In this document: one piece after another, positions 2,628 to 19,879 of the stretch
Layout: the number at the start of each line of letters is the position of its first letter
How positions within the stretch are numbered: position 1 is the stretch's first letter
Virus record (IMG/VR): IMGVR_UViG_3300032088_000097
Location: 1-22,799 of that record
From: a virus
Length of the DNA stretch: 22,799 nucleotides
Direction: 5' to 3' (one strand)
Translations under genes and position numbers: made by a program
The notes under the pieces: generated by a model
What the model saw: only the letters and a program-made list of their open reading frames with translations
What the model was told of the DNA's origin: nothing
Databases searched by the model: none

Positions 2628-2671
2628 AAATTTCACAACCAATCCCGCTTCGTTTGGAGAGCTCAATCATC

Positions 2672-3484
2672 ATGTCATCACCACTCATACAAGTCGTCGA
2701 TTCACTCATCCAGGAACCTGCGGCCGAGTATCATGCCCAGTCGGGAAGGAATCTCAGTAGCCACTTACTGGCTCGTTTCCGTGAAAGTCCGCTCCTCTAT
2801 CATCGCACGGTCGCCGGCGAAGTCGACGAGATTGATCGTCCTGCGTACTTGCTCGGACAAGCTGCTCATGCGTTGATTCTGGAAGGGCGCGCGGCTTACG
2901 AGCGGCAGTTCGCCGTGGGCGGACCAGTCAACCCGAAGACCGGGCAAACGTACGGCGCGAACACCAAAGCGTTTCAGGTTTGGGCCGACTCGCAGGGGAA
3001 ACCGGTGTTAACTGACGCCCAGGCATTGCTGGTCGAACAACTCAGTCATGCGGTGCTGCTGCATCCGATCGCCGAGCGATTGCTCGATGACGGTGTGGCC
3101 GAAGGTGTTCTGCGGGCGGACTACTCGGGCATGCCTTGTCAGATTCGGTTGGACTGGTTCAGTCCCCAAAACGGCATCGTCGATCTGAAAACGTGTAACG
3201 ACTTGACTTGGTTCGAGTCCGACGCTCGACGGTTCGGCTACATGCATCAAATGGCGTTCTACCGCGCCGTCGTCTCGCAATTCGCCCAGATGCTGGTTCC
3301 GGTCCACATCATCGCCGTTGAGAAAAAAGAGCCGTATCGCTGCGGTGTCTGGCAGGTTGGGCAGGACGTGCTGGGTCAGTGCCAGAACGAAAACCAAGAG
3401 GCAATCGAGCGGCTGAAACGCTGCCAAGCCAACGATCACTGGCCAACCGGCTACGAGCAGATTCGTCAATTCGATTACGTGTGA
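2672..3484 (+). CDS. RecE/DUF3799-type PD-(D/E)XK exonuclease
   Basis: This 270-residue protein starts at the ATG at 2672, preceded by TTGGAGAG. The earlier in-frame ATG at 2597 overlaps the sigma factor gene and has no family-like sequence. Motifs of the lambda-exonuclease/RecE fold are visible: GQAAHALILE (H66), then RLDWFS (D161), GIVDLKT (D171, K173) and MHQMAFYRA (Q193, Y197). These match the pfam12684 pattern of an early His, the D...DxK metal site and a Q-x-x-x-Y motif. The enzyme would resect double-stranded DNA ends to give single strands for annealing or recombination. The ATPase and DUF669 genes that follow complete a typical phage recombination module. Confidence 0.85.
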   Translation: MSSPLIQVVDSLIQEPAAEYHAQSGRNLSSHLLARFRESPLLYHRTVAGEVDEIDRPAYLLGQAAHALILEGRAAYERQFAVGGPVNPKTGQTYGANTKAFQVWADSQGKPVLTDAQALLVEQLSHAVLLHPIAERLLDDGVAEGVLRADYSGMPCQIRLDWFSPQNGIVDLKTCNDLTWFESDARRFGYMHQMAFYRAVVSQFAQMLVPVHIIAVEKKEPYRCGVWQVGQDVLGQCQNENQEAIERLKRCQANDHWPTGYEQIRQFDYV

Positions 3485-3805: not shown

Positions 3806-3826
3806 CAGAAGGAGATGGAAAGCAGG

Positions 3827-4600
3827 ATGCAATTACTACAGAAAGTGACAACCGGCCGGCAAAACCGGCCACGACGTGTGTTGCTATACGGCACTCACGG
3901 CATTGGAAAATCGACTTTCGGGTCGCAGGCCGACCGGGCCGTGTTCATTCAGACCGAAGACGGTCTTGGTGAGATCGACTGTGCGAGGTTTCCCCTTGCC
4001 ATTAGTTATCGAGACGTCATGACTGCGATCGAGGAGCTGTACTCGTCAGAGCATGATTTCGCCACCGTGGTGATCGACAGTGTCGATTGGCTCGAGCGGC
4101 TGATCTGGGGCGATGTCTGCCGGGAACGGCAGGTCGATTCGATCGAGGACATTGGTTACGCCAAGGGTTACTCGTTCGCGCTGACCCAGTGGCGACAGCT
4201 ACTTGCCGGACTCGATGCCCTGCGTCTGGAACGTGGCATGACCATTGTCCTACTCGCTCATGCACGCATCGAGCGGTTTGAGAACCCCGAGACCGACACT
4301 TACGACCGCTACGTGCCAAGGCTGCATCGTCTTGCGTCACAGATCGTTCAGGAGTGGTGTGACGAAGTCTTTTTCGCCACCTACAAGGTCTACACCAAGA
4401 CGAGTGAGGAGGGTTTCAATCGCAAGAAAGCCAAGGGGGTCGGCACCGGCGAGCGAGTTCTTCGCACCACCGAGAGACCGGCCCACATGGCCAAGAACCG
4501 ACTGCAAAATCTGCCAGAGGAGTTGCCGCTCAACTGGAAGGCTTATTCCGACCACTTTACCAACCGTGACTCGAGCGAAGGAGAACTCGCCAATGACTAG
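3827..4600 (+). CDS. Sak4-like P-loop ATPase (phage single-strand annealing/recombination)
   Basis: This 257-residue RecA-fold ATPase has Walker A GTHGIGKST at residues 22-30, Walker B ATVVIDSVDW (79-88) and a sensor-like strand TIVLLAHARIE (139-149). This is the AAA_24/Sak4 arrangement. I chose the ATG at 3827 because the in-frame ATG at 3815 directly abuts AAGGAG (3809-3814), leaving no spacer; the downstream ATG has 12 bases. The protein is short for RecA and lacks L1/L2-like loops I can recognise, as expected for Sak4. With the nuclease and DUF669 protein it would promote strand annealing. The gene overlaps the next by eight bases. Confidence 0.83.
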   Translation: MQLLQKVTTGRQNRPRRVLLYGTHGIGKSTFGSQADRAVFIQTEDGLGEIDCARFPLAISYRDVMTAIEELYSSEHDFATVVIDSVDWLERLIWGDVCRERQVDSIEDIGYAKGYSFALTQWRQLLAGLDALRLERGMTIVLLAHARIERFENPETDTYDRYVPRLHRLASQIVQEWCDEVFFATYKVYTKTSEEGFNRKKAKGVGTGERVLRTTERPAHMAKNRLQNLPEELPLNWKAYSDHFTNRDSSEGELAND

Positions 4601-5048
4601 TCTTCAAGGATTTGATGCCACCGCCGTGGAGCCGACCACACCGATTGAACCGGTGCCAAGCGGCAAATACGTCGCCATGGTGATTGAGTCGGAAAATAAA
4701 CCGACCAAAGCCGGCACCGGACACTACCTGCAGTTGACGTTTGAAATACTCGAAGGAGATTACAAAGGACGTTTGCTCTGGGCTCGGCTCAATCTCGACA
4801 ATCCGAATGCCCAGGCGGTTTCGATCGCCAGGGCGGAACTGTCGTCGATCTGCCGCGCCGTGGGAGTAATGCAGCCCAAGGATTCAATGGAGCTGCACAA
4901 CCTGCCCATGGTGATCTCGGTTCGCTGCCGTAAACGAAGCGACAGCGACGAAATGTCGAACGAGATCCGCGGCTATGCGAGGAAAGAGGCTGCCGGTGCC
5001 GGGGTTCAATCTGGTACGCACGCGCCGCCATGGAACCGAACGGCGTAA
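4593..5048 (+). CDS. DUF669 family protein, probable ssDNA-binding partner
   Basis: This 151-residue protein starts at the ATG at 4593, with GAAGGAG 9 bases upstream and the start inside the end of the ATPase gene. The long upstream open frame is only a shadow of that gene. The body reads as a DUF669 OB-like fold: PSGKYVAMVIESENKPTKAG, then YLQLTFEILEGDYKGRLLWARLNL, then ARAELSSICRAVGV and LPMVISVRCRKRSD. DUF669 proteins accompany Sak4 or RecA-like phage recombinases and are thought to act as single-strand binding proteins. The C-terminus (GVQSGTHAPPWNRTA) is flexible, with a W close to the end, as in SSB-like tails but without the acidic tip. Confidence 0.8.
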   Translation: MTSLQGFDATAVEPTTPIEPVPSGKYVAMVIESENKPTKAGTGHYLQLTFEILEGDYKGRLLWARLNLDNPNAQAVSIARAELSSICRAVGVMQPKDSMELHNLPMVISVRCRKRSDSDEMSNEIRGYARKEAAGAGVQSGTHAPPWNRTA

Positions 5049-7072: not shown

Positions 7073-8992
7073 TTGACCATCTCGCTCCATGAATCTGCCA
7101 TGCGTTATGCAGATCTCGGTTACCCCGTATTTCCCTGTGTGCCGGGACGTAAAGAGCCTTTGTGCGGCAACGGTTGTCTAGATGCCACCACCGATCTTGA
7201 CCAAGTCGATCTCTGGTGGACGCAGCGACCCAACGCGAATGTCGGAATCGCCACGGAAGGCTTGTTAGTGATTGATGTCGATCACGGATCAAAGTGGCTT
7301 GAAAATGAGGAAGATCGATTGCTTGACCTTGCGATGGCACCACTCTCTCTCACTGCCAGAGAAGGACAACAGTACTTTTTTAGACCGCCGGGCGGCGAGG
7401 CGTTTCGTAACACCGCCGGGATGCTCGCCGAAAAGGTCGATACTCGCGCCGATGGCGGCTATGTCGTCGCGCCACCATCGGTTCTTGAGGGTAATCGCCG
7501 CTATCGCTGGGCCAAAGGCATGGAGCTTGATGTGGTACCGAGCGAATTACCTGAGGCTCCATCGTGGTTGATCGAACAGCTGCAACAACGTGTTGCCTCC
7601 AACAATTCGGTTTCAGGTGATCGTGATGCGTGCACCGGCGGTGAGGCCAATCCAATCCCCAGCGGCCAGCGTAACGCAACGCTTGCAAGACTTGCTGGTG
7701 TGATGCGTCGGTCTGGTATGTCGCGACAGGAGATCGCCGCGGCCCTAGAGGCGACCAATCGTCTGCGTTGCAATCCGCCTGTCGATACTCGCGAAGTAGA
7801 AAGAATCGCAGAGAGCATTTCTCGGTATCGGCCGGACGACATCACCGTCGCGTTGATGGAGAATCACTGGGAGCAATTCATCAAGCAACCCGGTGAATCT
7901 CTTTTTCAACCGATCACATCGGCTCAGCTTGATGCTGAAACCTACGAATTGAATTACCTGGTCAACGGTGTTCTCGTACGGGGCCAACCTGGGGTGGTTG
8001 CTGGACCCAAAAAGACTCTTAAAACCAACATCAGCGTCGACCTGGCGCTGTCACTCTCGGAAGGTTGTGAATTCCTCGGTCGTTTCGACGTGCCCCTGGC
8101 GACCCGTGTCGGGATCATGTCGGGGGAGTCGGGTGCGGCAACGCTGCAAGAGACGGCCAGGCGTGTTGCCAAGGCCAAAGGTTTGCAATTATCGGCATGC
8201 TCGAATCTTGTCTGGTGTTTCGATGTGCCCCAGCTCGGCGACCAGACACATATCGAAGCGCTCGGGAAGATGATTGAAAAGCACGAGCTGGAAGTGCTGA
8301 TCCTCGATCCCACCTACCTGATGATGTTGGGAATCGGAAACGACGCCGGCAATCTGTTCATCGTTGGCGCGTTGCTCAAATCACTCGGTGAATTGGCCCA
8401 AAAAACCGGATGCACACCGCTGCTATGCCACCACCTGAAAAAGAGTGTCGCAGAGCCCTACGAGCCCGCTGAGCTGGAAAACATCGCATGGGCGGGGTTT
8501 CAGGAGTTCGTGCGGCAGTGGATCTTGCTCAACCGCAGAGTCAAATACGACCCCGATCAAGGCGGTCATCACGAGCTCTGGATGGGCGTGGGCGGCTCTG
8601 CCGGCCACAGCGGTTTGTGGGGCATCGACGTTGATGAGGGCGTGCGTGACGAACCTGGCGGACGGCGTTGGGACGTGACAACTCTGGAAGCCAGCGAAGC
8701 CTATCAGCACCGTGACGCCCATGAGGAGCAGCGCAACGAGCAACGCAAGGAATCCCGTGCAGAACGCAAACACCAGAAAGAGCGAGCGGCGCTACTTCAT
8801 TCGTTAACCGAATTTCCGACCGGCGAGACTAGTCGTGTGATTCGTGAAGCTGCCGGCATAAGCGGTAGCCGATTCAAGGACCTAATCGAGGAGCTCATTG
8901 ATGATGGACTGGCACAAAATCGTGAGATCACAAAGGCGAATGGACAAAAATATGAGGGCTTCATCATCAGTGGGACCGAGCTGTCCCAGTGA
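7073..8992 (+). CDS. Primase-polymerase fused to AAA_25-type ATPase/helicase
   Basis: This 639-residue protein uses a TTG start at 7073, with AAGGAG at 7058-7063 at ideal spacing. The open frame extends back to 6572 but there it only shadows the helicase gene. Domains: a prim-pol (about 5-150) with GYPVFPC, the metal-binding LLVIDVD (D68, D70) and GGYVVAPPS; a PriCT-like helical domain (about 197-252); an ATPase (about 290-520) with P-loop GPKKTLKTN (311-319), in which the usual second Gly is Leu, and Walker B VLILDP (408-413). A charged coiled coil (about 545-580) and a small winged-helix-like end follow. It probably primes and unwinds at the phage origin. The iteron-like array begins in its last codons. 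Confidence 0.85.
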   Translation: MTISLHESAMRYADLGYPVFPCVPGRKEPLCGNGCLDATTDLDQVDLWWTQRPNANVGIATEGLLVIDVDHGSKWLENEEDRLLDLAMAPLSLTAREGQQYFFRPPGGEAFRNTAGMLAEKVDTRADGGYVVAPPSVLEGNRRYRWAKGMELDVVPSELPEAPSWLIEQLQQRVASNNSVSGDRDACTGGEANPIPSGQRNATLARLAGVMRRSGMSRQEIAAALEATNRLRCNPPVDTREVERIAESISRYRPDDITVALMENHWEQFIKQPGESLFQPITSAQLDAETYELNYLVNGVLVRGQPGVVAGPKKTLKTNISVDLALSLSEGCEFLGRFDVPLATRVGIMSGESGAATLQETARRVAKAKGLQLSACSNLVWCFDVPQLGDQTHIEALGKMIEKHELEVLILDPTYLMMLGIGNDAGNLFIVGALLKSLGELAQKTGCTPLLCHHLKKSVAEPYEPAELENIAWAGFQEFVRQWILLNRRVKYDPDQGGHHELWMGVGGSAGHSGLWGIDVDEGVRDEPGGRRWDVTTLEASEAYQHRDAHEEQRNEQRKESRAERKHQKERAALLHSLTEFPTGETSRVIREAAGISGSRFKDLIEELIDDGLAQNREITKANGQKYEGFIISGTELSQ

Positions 8993-9208
8993 TTCCCAGT
9001 GCGGCAAGCGAATCAGTGGGACAAGGCAGTCCCACTGTTTCCCACTGTTAAGATAGGTTCACTGGGACCACTGGGACTCAGTGGGACAAAACGTCTGTCC
9101 CAGTGCTGAGCACACCAGTGGGACTAGGCCCCTATAGGGGGCCGTCCCACTGATGTGCGATGTGTGATCGAATCCCACCGATGTGTCCCAGTGAAATCTG
9201 TCCCAGTG
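8968..9208. repeat. Iteron-like array of 14 copies of a 9-base motif, candidate origin
   Basis: The motif CA(G/C)TGGGAC, or its reverse complement, occurs at 8968, 8983, 9014, 9029, 9060, 9069, 9079, 9097, 9116, 9144, 9185 and 9200. One-mismatch copies lie at 8993 and 9039. Both orientations are present and many are separated by about 10 or 21 bases, that is, by helical turns. The array starts in the last codons of the primase/helicase gene and runs through the gene-free stretch. This layout matches origin iterons next to an initiator gene, or a multi-site operator. The repeats are directly visible; their role is inference. CRISPR is excluded because the units are short and occur in both orientations. 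Confidence 0.85.
9116..9152. promoter_or_regulatory. Long near-perfect hairpin inside the repeat array
   Basis: CAGTGGGAC at 9116-9124 pairs with GTCCCACTG at 9144-9152. Inside lies GGCCCC (9127-9132), TATA, then GGGGGCC (9137-9143). The result is about 15 base pairs in 37 bases with small bulges. No T-tract follows, so it does not look like an intrinsic terminator. A cruciform or nicking/initiation structure, or a dimer site for the repeat-binding protein, fits better. Confidence 0.7.
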
Positions 9209-9399
9209 ACGAACGTGCCCGACGCAACGGACCAAAGTGCCGCAATGGCATCCTCCAGAAAAAGATTAGGTACTTCCCGGCGTATGTCGTGATATCAGGC
9301 CCACGGGAACAGCAGCATTGTCAGTCAGAGTTTGTTTGAGTCCGAATGGACATTCAAACTGTTGAAAAGAAACAGTAACCCAGCCAACCGCACACCCAC

Positions 9400-9425
9400 C
9401 CAACCACCCAACCACCGACCGAACC
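9400..9425 (+). repeat. C-rich, G-poor leader element, copy 2
   Basis: CCAACCACCCAACCAC at 9400-9415 is identical to 219-234 and the next ten bases are similar. It lies 38-64 bases before the methyltransferase ATG. Read in the methyltransferase frame it encodes TQPPNHRPN, close to NQPPNHGRN of the first leader peptide. The frame is open back to a TTG at 9332, so an upstream start cannot be excluded. Confidence 0.5.
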
Positions 9426-9463
9426 CCTTCCGTTTCTCTACTCGCCTTGGAAGGGCTTTACGC

Positions 9464-10771
9464 ATGCAGGTCGAAATGTGGTCGCTTGATCGAATCAAGC
9501 CGTACGAAAACAACCCCCGTATCAACGATGCCGCGGTAGACCCGGTCGTTCAGAGTATCAACGAATTCGGTTTCCGGCAGCCGATTGTGGTCGACGCCGA
9601 TGGTGTGATCATTGTTGGTCACACCAGGTGGCAGGCCGCGACAAAGCTTGGCCTTGAGAAAGTGCCGGTGCACATCGCCACGGATCTGTCGCCCGATGCG
9701 ATCAAGGCTTACCGCATCGCTGATAACCGAACCGGCGAAAACGCTCAGTGGGACTACGAACTGTTGCCGATTGAAATTGGCGACCTGCAATCTAGCGGTT
9801 TCGATTGTGAGCTGCTTGGGTTCAACGGCGATGAGCTGGCAAAACTACTCGAGCCAGACATGCAAGCTGGCCTCACCGATCCCGACGATGTCCCGGAGCC
9901 GCCGGACGATCCCGTTACACAGCCGGGTGATCTTTGGATCCTCGGCGAGCATCGCCTGCTCTGTGGCGACTCGTCCAAACCGGAAGATGTGGACCGCCTG
10001 CTTGATGGTGCGGCGATCCATCTTGTGAATACCGATCCCCCGTACAACGTGAAGGTAGAGCCACGAAGCAAAAACGCAATCGCCGCGGGGAACAGCTCGT
10101 TTGCCGGCACCGGAAAGAAGTCCAGTACGTCGCAGAAGATGCGAGCCAAAGATCGGCCTCTCACTAACGACTTCGTTTCTGACGAGGAATTTGATCGCTT
10201 ACTTGGTGCGTGGTTTGGCAACATCGCACGCGTGCTGGAGCCCGGTCGTAGCTTCTATATCTGGGGAGGCTTTTCGAACATTCAAAACTATCCACCGGTC
10301 CTTTCCTCGTGTGGCCTCTATTTTTCGCAGGCCATTATCTGGGACAAAATGCATCCGGTTTTGACGCGAAAAGACTACATGGGCGCTCACGAGTGGGCAT
10401 TCTACGGATGGAAGGAAGGGGCTGGTCACAAGTTCTTCGGCCCTAACAACGCGACCGACCTGTGGCACGTGAAAAAGATCCCGCCGCAGCAGCTTGAACA
10501 TCTCACGGGCAAGCCGGCCGAACTCGCTGTCATTGCGATGCAGAACTCGTCTCTTAAAGGCGAAAACGTGCTGGATCTCTTTGGTGGCAGCGGCTCAACA
10601 TTGATCGGCGCCGAGCAGACCGGGCGACGTGCGTTCCTGATGGAACTGGACGCTCCTTACTGTGACGTGATCGTTGATCGATACCAACGCTTCACTGGCA
10701 AGCCGGCTGTGCTCGAGCGAACCGGCCAGTCGCCGATCCCGATCGGTAAGCGTGAGGAAGCGATGCGATGA
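9464..10771 (+). CDS. ParB-domain DNA methyltransferase
   Basis: This 435-residue protein starts at the ATG at 9464, preceded by GGAAGGG. The N-terminus (about 1-130) is a ParB/Srx-like domain: IKPYENNPRIND, then GFRQPIVVDADGVIIVGHTRW with the GHTR motif at 52-55. The C-terminal part is an N4/N6 amino-methyltransferase with the catalytic DPPY at 191-194 before the SAM-binding FGGSGS at 373-378; a typical HLTGKPAEL precedes it (346-354). This motif order is that of beta-class enzymes. No restriction endonuclease is adjacent, so it is a solitary phage methylase. It may protect phage DNA from host restriction or mark it for packaging or regulation. The target sequence cannot be read from the protein. 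Confidence 0.9.
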   Translation: MQVEMWSLDRIKPYENNPRINDAAVDPVVQSINEFGFRQPIVVDADGVIIVGHTRWQAATKLGLEKVPVHIATDLSPDAIKAYRIADNRTGENAQWDYELLPIEIGDLQSSGFDCELLGFNGDELAKLLEPDMQAGLTDPDDVPEPPDDPVTQPGDLWILGEHRLLCGDSSKPEDVDRLLDGAAIHLVNTDPPYNVKVEPRSKNAIAAGNSSFAGTGKKSSTSQKMRAKDRPLTNDFVSDEEFDRLLGAWFGNIARVLEPGRSFYIWGGFSNIQNYPPVLSSCGLYFSQAIIWDKMHPVLTRKDYMGAHEWAFYGWKEGAGHKFFGPNNATDLWHVKKIPPQQLEHLTGKPAELAVIAMQNSSLKGENVLDLFGGSGSTLIGAEQTGRRAFLMELDAPYCDVIVDRYQRFTGKPAVLERTGQSPIPIGKREEAMR

Positions 10772-18353: not shown

Positions 18354-18932
18354 GTGAAGTCCACGATGTTTGCGCTGGCGATCTTGTTGACTGCTGGTGC
18401 CGAAATCTCCAGTGGCCAATCGGTCGATTGTCCCGACGACAGGCTCGCGGTCGATTTACCTCGAGACATTCGCAACTGGTTTCGTAACCCCGATGGCTCC
18501 TGCGTGCAGTGTTCGATCGGGATGTGTGGCGTTGACCAGAACGTCCCTGAGGCTGCGACTTTGCTCTGGGACACCGAGTATGGACCGCGGGAACGTGGCG
18601 GCTCTGGACCGTCTCGTGTTTCGGCTTACTGCCATCGCCGTGGAATCCGCGCTTTCAACATCACTGGTTCCAATACCTGGGACTGGATGAAGTGGGCTGC
18701 CGAAACTGGGCGTGGAACGGCGATCGGAGCAGGCCGCGCTCACTTCCAAACGCTCATGGGATACGAGCCCGAGACGGGCACCTGGTACGTCTGCAACAAC
18801 AATTCCCCGACAAGAATCGATGCTTATGACGAAGCGTCGTTCAGGCGGCTCCATCTGGCCAGCGGTCAGTGGGTCGTGATTCTCGACTACCCGCCGCATC
18901 CCGAGCGGCCCCAGTACTTCCAGTGGTGGTGA
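18354..18932 (+). CDS. Exported papain-like cysteine peptidase (probable)
   Basis: This 192-residue protein starts at GTG 18354, with AAGGAAG 7 bases upstream. The N-terminus MKSTMFALAILLTAGAEISS is a signal peptide. The mature part shows a cysteine-peptidase-like order: PDGSCVQCSIGMCG (C50 or C53 as nucleophile), then GRAHFQTLMGYEPE (H130) and WYVCNNNSP (N148-N150), then RLHLASGQWVVILDYPP. This is the Cys-His-Asn order of C1/C39-like folds. It has no propeptide. The substrate is unknown: a host envelope protein, a phage precursor or a cell-wall peptide (SAR-endolysin-like lysis) are all possible. The gene lies 28 bases after the Cys-rich protein and 26 bases before the thioredoxin gene. Confidence 0.65.
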   Translation: MKSTMFALAILLTAGAEISSGQSVDCPDDRLAVDLPRDIRNWFRNPDGSCVQCSIGMCGVDQNVPEAATLLWDTEYGPRERGGSGPSRVSAYCHRRGIRAFNITGSNTWDWMKWAAETGRGTAIGAGRAHFQTLMGYEPETGTWYVCNNNSPTRIDAYDEASFRRLHLASGQWVVILDYPPHPERPQYFQWW

Positions 18933-18958
18933 CACATTTGAGGCAAAAGGATTTGACA

Positions 18959-19879
18959 ATGCGTTCTCTCTTTCTGGCAATCCTCACGATTGGCTCCCTA
19001 AGCAGCGCCGCCCTGGCACAAAGCAATCGACCGGAAGTCGACCACGCGGAAGTGATGCGACTCGGTGACACCGTCCAGTACGTGGGCACTCACGCCGCCG
19101 GGGCAGAGAACGCTGATGCCTTTGTCGCGGCGATGAGCCCACCAGAAAGTGACGCTGACAAGTGGTTCATCAGCGTGCTCACAATGAAGGGCTGCGCCCC
19201 TTGCGAGAAGCTCAAGCGAGACTGGGCAACCAACGAGTGGCTGCTTGCACTTGCGAATCCCAGCGATTCGAAAAGATCGTGGGCGCACTATAAGGTCTAC
19301 GACAAGGATGACGAGAGCCAGAAGTTTCGCTGGGAAAAGGTCAAGATCACCGCCTACCCGACCATCATCATTCAGCCACCACGAAGTGAAATCTATGGAG
19401 ACCCGGCTACGGTCGTGTTCCAGAAGGTTTATCAAGGTGACCCGGAGCGTTTGGCCCGCGGGATCAGTGACGCCATCCGTCGCTACATCGCAAGGCTACA
19501 AACGATTCACGAGTCGGAACCGAGCGGTCTAATCGGACAATCTGCTCCTCCATGGCAACCGGTACCGCGCACCGATCCCTTTCGACCGCCACCCAAGACA
19601 CCTTTCCCTCTCATCGATCCCAATATTCCACCGGAGCCAGTTCCTGTTGCGGTGCCTGCGTCCATCTTTCCATGGTCAGCGGTGCTGGGATTGCTGATGG
19701 CCGGATTCTCCATTCCTGCCGTGATCGCGCTGGTCATCTGGGGCTTTCGCTTCATCCGAGAAAAGAGACAGGCAGCCGGCAAACCACTACTGCTCGACCA
19801 GGAAACATTCGACGAATTGATCGCTCTGCTGCGACAGTTATCAGAAACGCAGGCCCAATCAGCACCAGTTAAGAAATAG
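18959..19879 (+). CDS. Exported, membrane-anchored thioredoxin-fold protein
   Basis: This 306-residue protein starts at ATG 18959 with AAAAGG upstream; the frame further left shadows the peptidase gene. The signal peptide is MRSLFLAILTIGSLSSAALA, with cleavage near A20. The thioredoxin domain follows, with TMKGCAPCEKLKRDW (active-site CAPC, 79-82) and a cis-Pro in ITAYPTIII (P134). A proline-rich linker (about 198-232) leads to one transmembrane helix (about 239-265) and a basic-then-helical tail of about 40 residues. The domain would face the periplasm. It could oxidise, reduce or isomerise disulfides in the two Cys-containing exported partners before it. That partnership is inferred from gene order. 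Confidence 0.83.
   Translation: MRSLFLAILTIGSLSSAALAQSNRPEVDHAEVMRLGDTVQYVGTHAAGAENADAFVAAMSPPESDADKWFISVLTMKGCAPCEKLKRDWATNEWLLALANPSDSKRSWAHYKVYDKDDESQKFRWEKVKITAYPTIIIQPPRSEIYGDPATVVFQKVYQGDPERLARGISDAIRRYIARLQTIHESEPSGLIGQSAPPWQPVPRTDPFRPPPKTPFPLIDPNIPPEPVPVAVPASIFPWSAVLGLLMAGFSIPAVIALVIWGFRFIREKRQAAGKPLLLDQETFDELIALLRQLSETQAQSAPVKK

Follow-up and report, generated by a model that had tools for sequence, protein, structure and literature searches.

Why does the primase gene of a phage run, in its last codons, into a dense cluster of short repeats that point in both directions? The DNA analysed here (the window: 22,799 nucleotides, positions 1 to 22,799 of IMG/VR virus record IMGVR_UViG_3300032088_000097) carries such a cluster, for which a first-pass annotation had offered two explanations, a new type of origin or a multi-site operator for the nearby ParB-domain methylase. 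Our analysis favours an origin reading, and we put at about 0.8 the probability that phage replication starts at the array and that the primase itself binds there through its C-terminal winged helix.

Structure of the repeat array

The features of the array are as follows.

8968..9208, both strands: array of 14 iterons CASTGGGA(C/A), from motif counts and shuffles
8968, 9014, 9060, 9069, 9079, 9116: iterons on the + strand
8983, 8993, 9029, 9039, 9097, 9144, 9185, 9200: iterons on the - strand
9110..9158, both strands: near-perfect palindrome, two converging iterons around CCCCTATAGGGG, candidate origin centre

The dense 9-base array of the first-pass annotation proved to be real. Twelve exact copies of CASTGGGAC and two of the one-mismatch form CASTGGGAA are packed in both orientations into 241 bp, while dinucleotide shuffles of the same region gave a mean of 0.05 copies and a maximum of 2, and in whole-window shuffles the largest cluster was 2 copies per 245 bp. 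Elsewhere in the window the exact motif occurs once, at 9746, within the methylase gene. As had been noted, the first iteron falls within the final codons of the primase gene; the stop codon is overlapped by the second. From one copy to the next the distances are 16, 10, 20, 16, 10, 20, 9, 10, 19, 18, 29, 41 and 15, so that the earlier description of spacings near 10 or 21 bases is roughly right, and the array is internally built of two blocks that repeat at 46 bp. Two further elements had been overlooked: a degenerate 15th iteron near 9171 on the - strand, and the inverted repeat at 9110-9158, which is 93% complementary, has CCCCTATAGGGG as its core (9129-9140) and folds as a single-strand DNA hairpin with -22.5 kcal/mol (z -7.0).

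As this is a G+C-rich hairpin directly after a gene, the palindrome could be taken for a transcription terminator or an RNA structure beside which the repeats are incidental. We consider this highly improbable: a terminator scan of 8900-9500 found no terminator-like site and no T run, an Rfam search gave no match, and 14 repeats in two orientations would be left unexplained. The array region had no blastn match among phage records. In the open-licence PMC papers that were searched, neither the array motif nor repeats 3' of a phage primase were reported, and an earlier report may exist elsewhere.

The primase and its predicted winged helix

The gene that ends in the array encodes a protein with the following parts.

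7100..8992, + strand: primase/ATPase gene, 630 aa, ATG at 7100, candidate origin-binding initiator
8813..8968, + strand: predicted C-terminal winged-helix domain, residues about 572-623, from AlphaFold2 models
8864..8902, + strand: predicted recognition helix H3, residues 589-601, from the model
8933..8953, + strand: wing KANGQKY, residues 612-618, from alignments

The start codon at 7100 was picked by alignment. According to Pfam, the protein has a Prim-Pol domain (PF09250, 1.5e-37), a PriCT_1 domain (2e-16) and an AAA_25 domain (2.8e-22), and the best matches to the N-terminal part of its model were the structures of the pRN1 ORF904 primase (9aam, 3m1m, 1rni). At the C-terminus, AlphaFold2 placed helices at 578-585 and 589-601 and strands at 605-611 and 617-623, in a block with pLDDT mostly between 83 and 90. 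When this model was aligned structurally in a second look, the top matches were winged-helix regulators, TtgV (Z 9.7) and MarR proteins. At E 0.001 no PDB chain matched the profile of the primase alignment, and a profile of the C-terminal domain found weak winged-helix matches only, so that the assignment as a winged helix is a prediction from the models. In the alignments, the wing KANGQKY is common only to those relatives that have CASTGGGAC-type repeats.

The array in related phages

Relatives of the window were found in Planctomycetota MAGs and IMG/VR contigs (L numbers below). Whether related phages have the array in the corresponding position had been proposed as a check on its significance, and we found that these planctomycete-phage relatives do carry it beside the primase, at the 3' end of the gene. 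The sequence of the repeat is lineage-specific, with the types CASTGGGAC, GGTGGGAC, GGTG(G/C)TCC, CGGACC and GGGCGGCACG. CASTGGGAC-type repeats are found in the window, L005, L006 and L011, and in a reduced form in L008 and L015; GGTGGGAC in L017, L019, L020 and L029; GGTGGTCC or GGTGCTCC in L009, L016 and L018; CGGACC in L012 and L026; and GGGCGGCACG in L007. The k-mer clustering of the arrays is strong in most loci and weak in L007, L008, L010, L015 and L016, and contig ends interrupt the arrays of L009, L010, L012 and L019. One relative with a shortened primase that lacks the winged helix (L014) has no clear array, and none was seen in L102.

The palindrome centre is also conserved. All 15 loci for which the sequence sufficed have a dyad of the CCTATA...GG type, or a close variant of it such as GCGTATATATATACGC in L007, 21-154 bp 3' of the stop codon, and the flanking repeats converge on it in the majority. 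Six of the 15, folded as single-strand DNA, form hairpins with z from -6 to -11. One of the 15 loci is that of a phage with a primase of about 30% identity (L101). Searched across 392 planctomycete genomes, the GGTGGT dyad pattern occurred in one, at an already known locus.

Some other planctomycete sequences showed repeats of other kinds. In a planctomycete genome contig (L059), a related primase gene has its stop codon at 2649, and the region some 69-125 bases beyond it holds GTGCGACA repeats, a further repeat type, and a perfect dyad with 26-bp arms and a TATAAA-type centre. Clustered 6-mers above the level of shuffles follow the primase genes of L058 (ACCTAT/AATAGG) and of L067 and L068 (AATAAT/ATAATC).

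Co-variation of repeat and winged helix

We compared the k-mer similarity of the arrays with the identity of protein regions in Mantel tests. Over 16 loci, which are phylogenetically non-independent, were treated as exchangeable and include some arrays incomplete at contig ends, the raw correlation was 0.72 for H3 plus wing versus 0.28 for the primase core. Controlling for the core left H3 plus wing at r 0.70 (p 0.0001), whereas the core fell to r -0.12 once H3 plus wing was controlled; with core, linker and H1-H2 all controlled, H3 plus wing still gave r 0.60. Taken singly, H3 identity (r 0.62) and the wing region (r 0.65) each correlated with repeat similarity. By eye the wings sort with the repeats as well, NGQKY going with CASTGGGAC, K(N/H)TR-like wings with the GGTGG types, KGGRTFE with CGGACC and KGRSKF with the repeat of L007. 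Since H1-H2 itself retains some correlation with the repeat (r 0.39), linkage between adjacent sequences may still be a cause of the co-variation, one that the H1-H2 control and the flanks shared in the exchanges described below reduce and do not remove.

The other protein that the first-pass annotation had connected with the array is encoded further downstream.

9464..10771, + strand: ParB_N plus N6_N4 methylase gene (Pfam), judged not to bind the array

That the array could be a multi-site operator or target of this methylase is suggested by the position of the gene, just 3' of the array in the window and kept, further downstream, in most relatives, and by a raw correlation of 0.44 between repeat and ParB domain. 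This correlation disappeared when H3 plus wing was controlled (r -0.06). In addition, L007 and L011 have ParB domains that are 96% identical and arrays that share no common motif, and the window and L007 have ParB domains that are 82% identical and unrelated arrays. We have thus rejected the operator reading, to which we give almost no weight.

At the level of compared sequences, therefore, the repeat follows H3 plus wing, and neither the primase core nor the ParB-domain methylase. As a change in the DNA-gripping tip of the primase is always accompanied by a change in the repeat, lock and key appear to evolve together. The origin reading gains support from this co-variation with the putative DNA-binding domain and from the conserved position beside the primase.

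Natural exchanges between near-identical phages

Two pairs of relatives illustrate how abrupt this change can be. L017 and L018, which come from one MAG, are 87% identical in DNA to about the start of H3, differ through the wing and the array, where only 54 bp at the dyad are conserved, and return to 91% identity beyond the array. For L007 and L011, DNA identity is 91% across 3.2 kb and ends near primase codon 535 (their cores are 96% identical), and beyond this codon both winged helix and array are unrelated; this second exchange is less precise because the unlike stretch extends well past the array.

These pairs also bear on whether some other protein binds the array, such as the HTH repressor (246-602) or the sigma-like factor, both encoded in the window, or a host factor, and on whether the array is instead a packaging or regulatory site. 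Any such explanation seems very unlikely to us, as in near-identical phages the change of repeat coincides exactly with the change of primase winged helix, and similar arrays lie 3' of unrelated primase-helicases in other phages.

Similar arrays beside other primase families

A search of 2.9 million viral contigs in IMG/VR with a three-copy CASTGGGAC pattern returned 22 stretches. Three of them belong to relatives of the window, 14 to a family of 808-residue PriCT_2/AAA_25 primases and three lie beside VapE-like primases, and therefore 20 of the 22 adjoin the 3' end of a primase-helicase gene, in three independent families; the 14 PriCT_2/AAA_25 matches are not independent because many are near-identical. 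Unlike these, one match is in a collagen-like repeat gene (L085) and is probably due to chance, and another (L089) has other genes as its neighbours, close to where its contig ends. Within single records most copies of the motif fall in the array, with 13 of 17 copies in the 54.8-kb record of L011 and 3 of 4 in that of L008.

It is possible that winged helix and array form a specificity cassette that is swapped between phages as one unit and would give near-identical phages mutually incompatible origins, and that three primase-helicase families unrelated to one another (Prim-Pol/AAA_25, PriCT_2/AAA_25 and VapE-like) arrived at the TGGGAC-type repeat separately or exchanged it. We advance this as a tentative proposal, to which we would give somewhat less than even odds.

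Several of the arrays in other families have features of their own. In the 808-residue proteins (L081, 4089-4326, and homologues) the CASTGGGAC array is inside the reading frame, towards the 3' end of the gene, and the homologues keep a similar, open frame across it. Pseudomonas phage vB_Pae_U5 (L099, 4080-4345) has an unannotated two-orientation array of the TGTCCCAC type about 0.4 kb after the stop of its VapE-like primase, and Marinobacter phage PS3 (L100, 3608-3860) one of the GGGGTGACC type 3' of a VapE-like primase. In two other VapE-like phages (L074, 4274-4560; L094, 2636-2960), ACTGGGAC repeats surround alternating purine-pyrimidine tracts, TG/CG runs that replace the TATA dyad.

Proposed mechanism and known systems

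We propose that the primase/ATPase would bind the 9-bp repeats through its C-terminal winged helix, by means of H3 and the wing. Oppositely oriented initiator complexes would load around the palindromic CCCCTATAGGGG centre, because repeats on both sides point toward it. Opening of the AT core, possibly by way of a hairpin or cruciform, would fall to the RecA-like AAA_25 ATPase. Priming of both strands by the Prim-Pol domain would make replication bidirectional. DNA binding, melting, priming and origin activity are what we infer from the comparisons above. Some observations count against this model: four left-side repeats of the window array point the opposite way, GC skew in the window and two longer relatives had no inflection at the array, and among the relatives the reduced arrays of L008 and L015 cluster weakly and L102 has none.

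The same co-variation would be expected if the primase bound the array through its winged helix chiefly to hold replication in check or to shut down the operon that encodes it, the true origin being elsewhere, as in copy control or handcuffing at a site of the P4 crr type. Indeed, the same repeats often serve both control and initiation in known iteron systems. As the main function of the array we regard this as unlikely. The array lies downstream of the gene, a scan of 8900-9500 for sigma-70-type promoters found none, and the central TATA dyad is what an opening site would need.

If the array is an origin bound by the primase, it resembles several described systems. The SaPI Rep and SCCmec Cch2 proteins are self-loading initiator helicases whose C-terminal domain binds iterons just 3' of their own genes (PMC7581432), and the window has the same plan, its first repeat falling in the last codons of the helicase gene. 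The proposed origin is therefore not of a new type in its layout, as the first-pass annotation had suggested it might be, but it does differ in its helicase domain and in its TATA dyad: the SaPI Rep and Cch2 helicases are of the DUF927 or Primase_Cterm/D5 type, whereas in the window a RecA-like AAA_25 domain is fused to Prim-Pol (Pfam), and the repeats, unlike those of SaPI Rep and Cch2, lie in both orientations and converge on the dyad. The plasmid pRN1 requires for its replication a stem-loop 3' of its Prim-Pol/SF3/winged-helix gene (ORF904), and a similar stem-loop has been noted after the replication gene of Bordetella phage BIP-1 (PMC4234260). Like ORF904, the window protein joins Prim-Pol, an ATPase and a C-terminal winged helix (predicted here), and it is followed by a stem-loop (9110-9158), although a shorter one than the 100-nt element of pRN1, which has an SF3 helicase and no iterons where the window has AAA_25 and an iteron array with a dyad. 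The alpha protein of phage P4 also combines primase, ATPase and winged-helix origin binding, with repeats at ori (PMC4234260), but its primase is of the bacterial Toprim type and that of the window is a Prim-Pol. The window system would thus operate much as the origins of SaPI Rep, P4 alpha and pRN1 do, and is a strict member of none of these groups; from the SaPI Rep/Cch2 and pRN1 types it is set apart because iterons are combined with a dyad and an AAA_25 ATPase.

Also comparable are primases of the PrimPol-PV1/PrimQH family, which have Prim-Pol, PriCT, diverse P-loop ATPases including the RepA type, and a C-terminal winged helix (PMC5862659). That phage and plasmid PrimPols recognise the origin with their winged helix and wing was a speculation from structure models (PMC5862659), to which the co-variation of repeat with helix and wing described here adds comparative evidence. 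The natural pairs, with near-identical cores and different winged helices and repeats, make that proposal directly testable and could let the recognition code be read. Moreover, converging repeats around a TATA dyad just 3' of a primase are a simple sign by which unannotated origins could be found in phages known from metagenomes only.

Other elements of the window

Between the array and the methylase gene there is a non-coding element (9263-9345) with the segments TTAGGTACTTCCCGGCG...CGGGAACAGC...CAGTTTGTTT...TGTCCGAA, which is kept in L006, L008, L011, L017, L018 and L020 despite their differing arrays; our guess is that it is a cos-like or regulatory site. Upstream of the primase, an AAA_24 protein and a DUF669 protein (3815-5048), together with a DUF3799 PDDEXK protein (2669-3484), probably constitute a recombination or single-strand-binding module. 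Finally, a reading frame in the late part of the window (18869-19879) has a CAPC motif and looks thioredoxin-like by eye.
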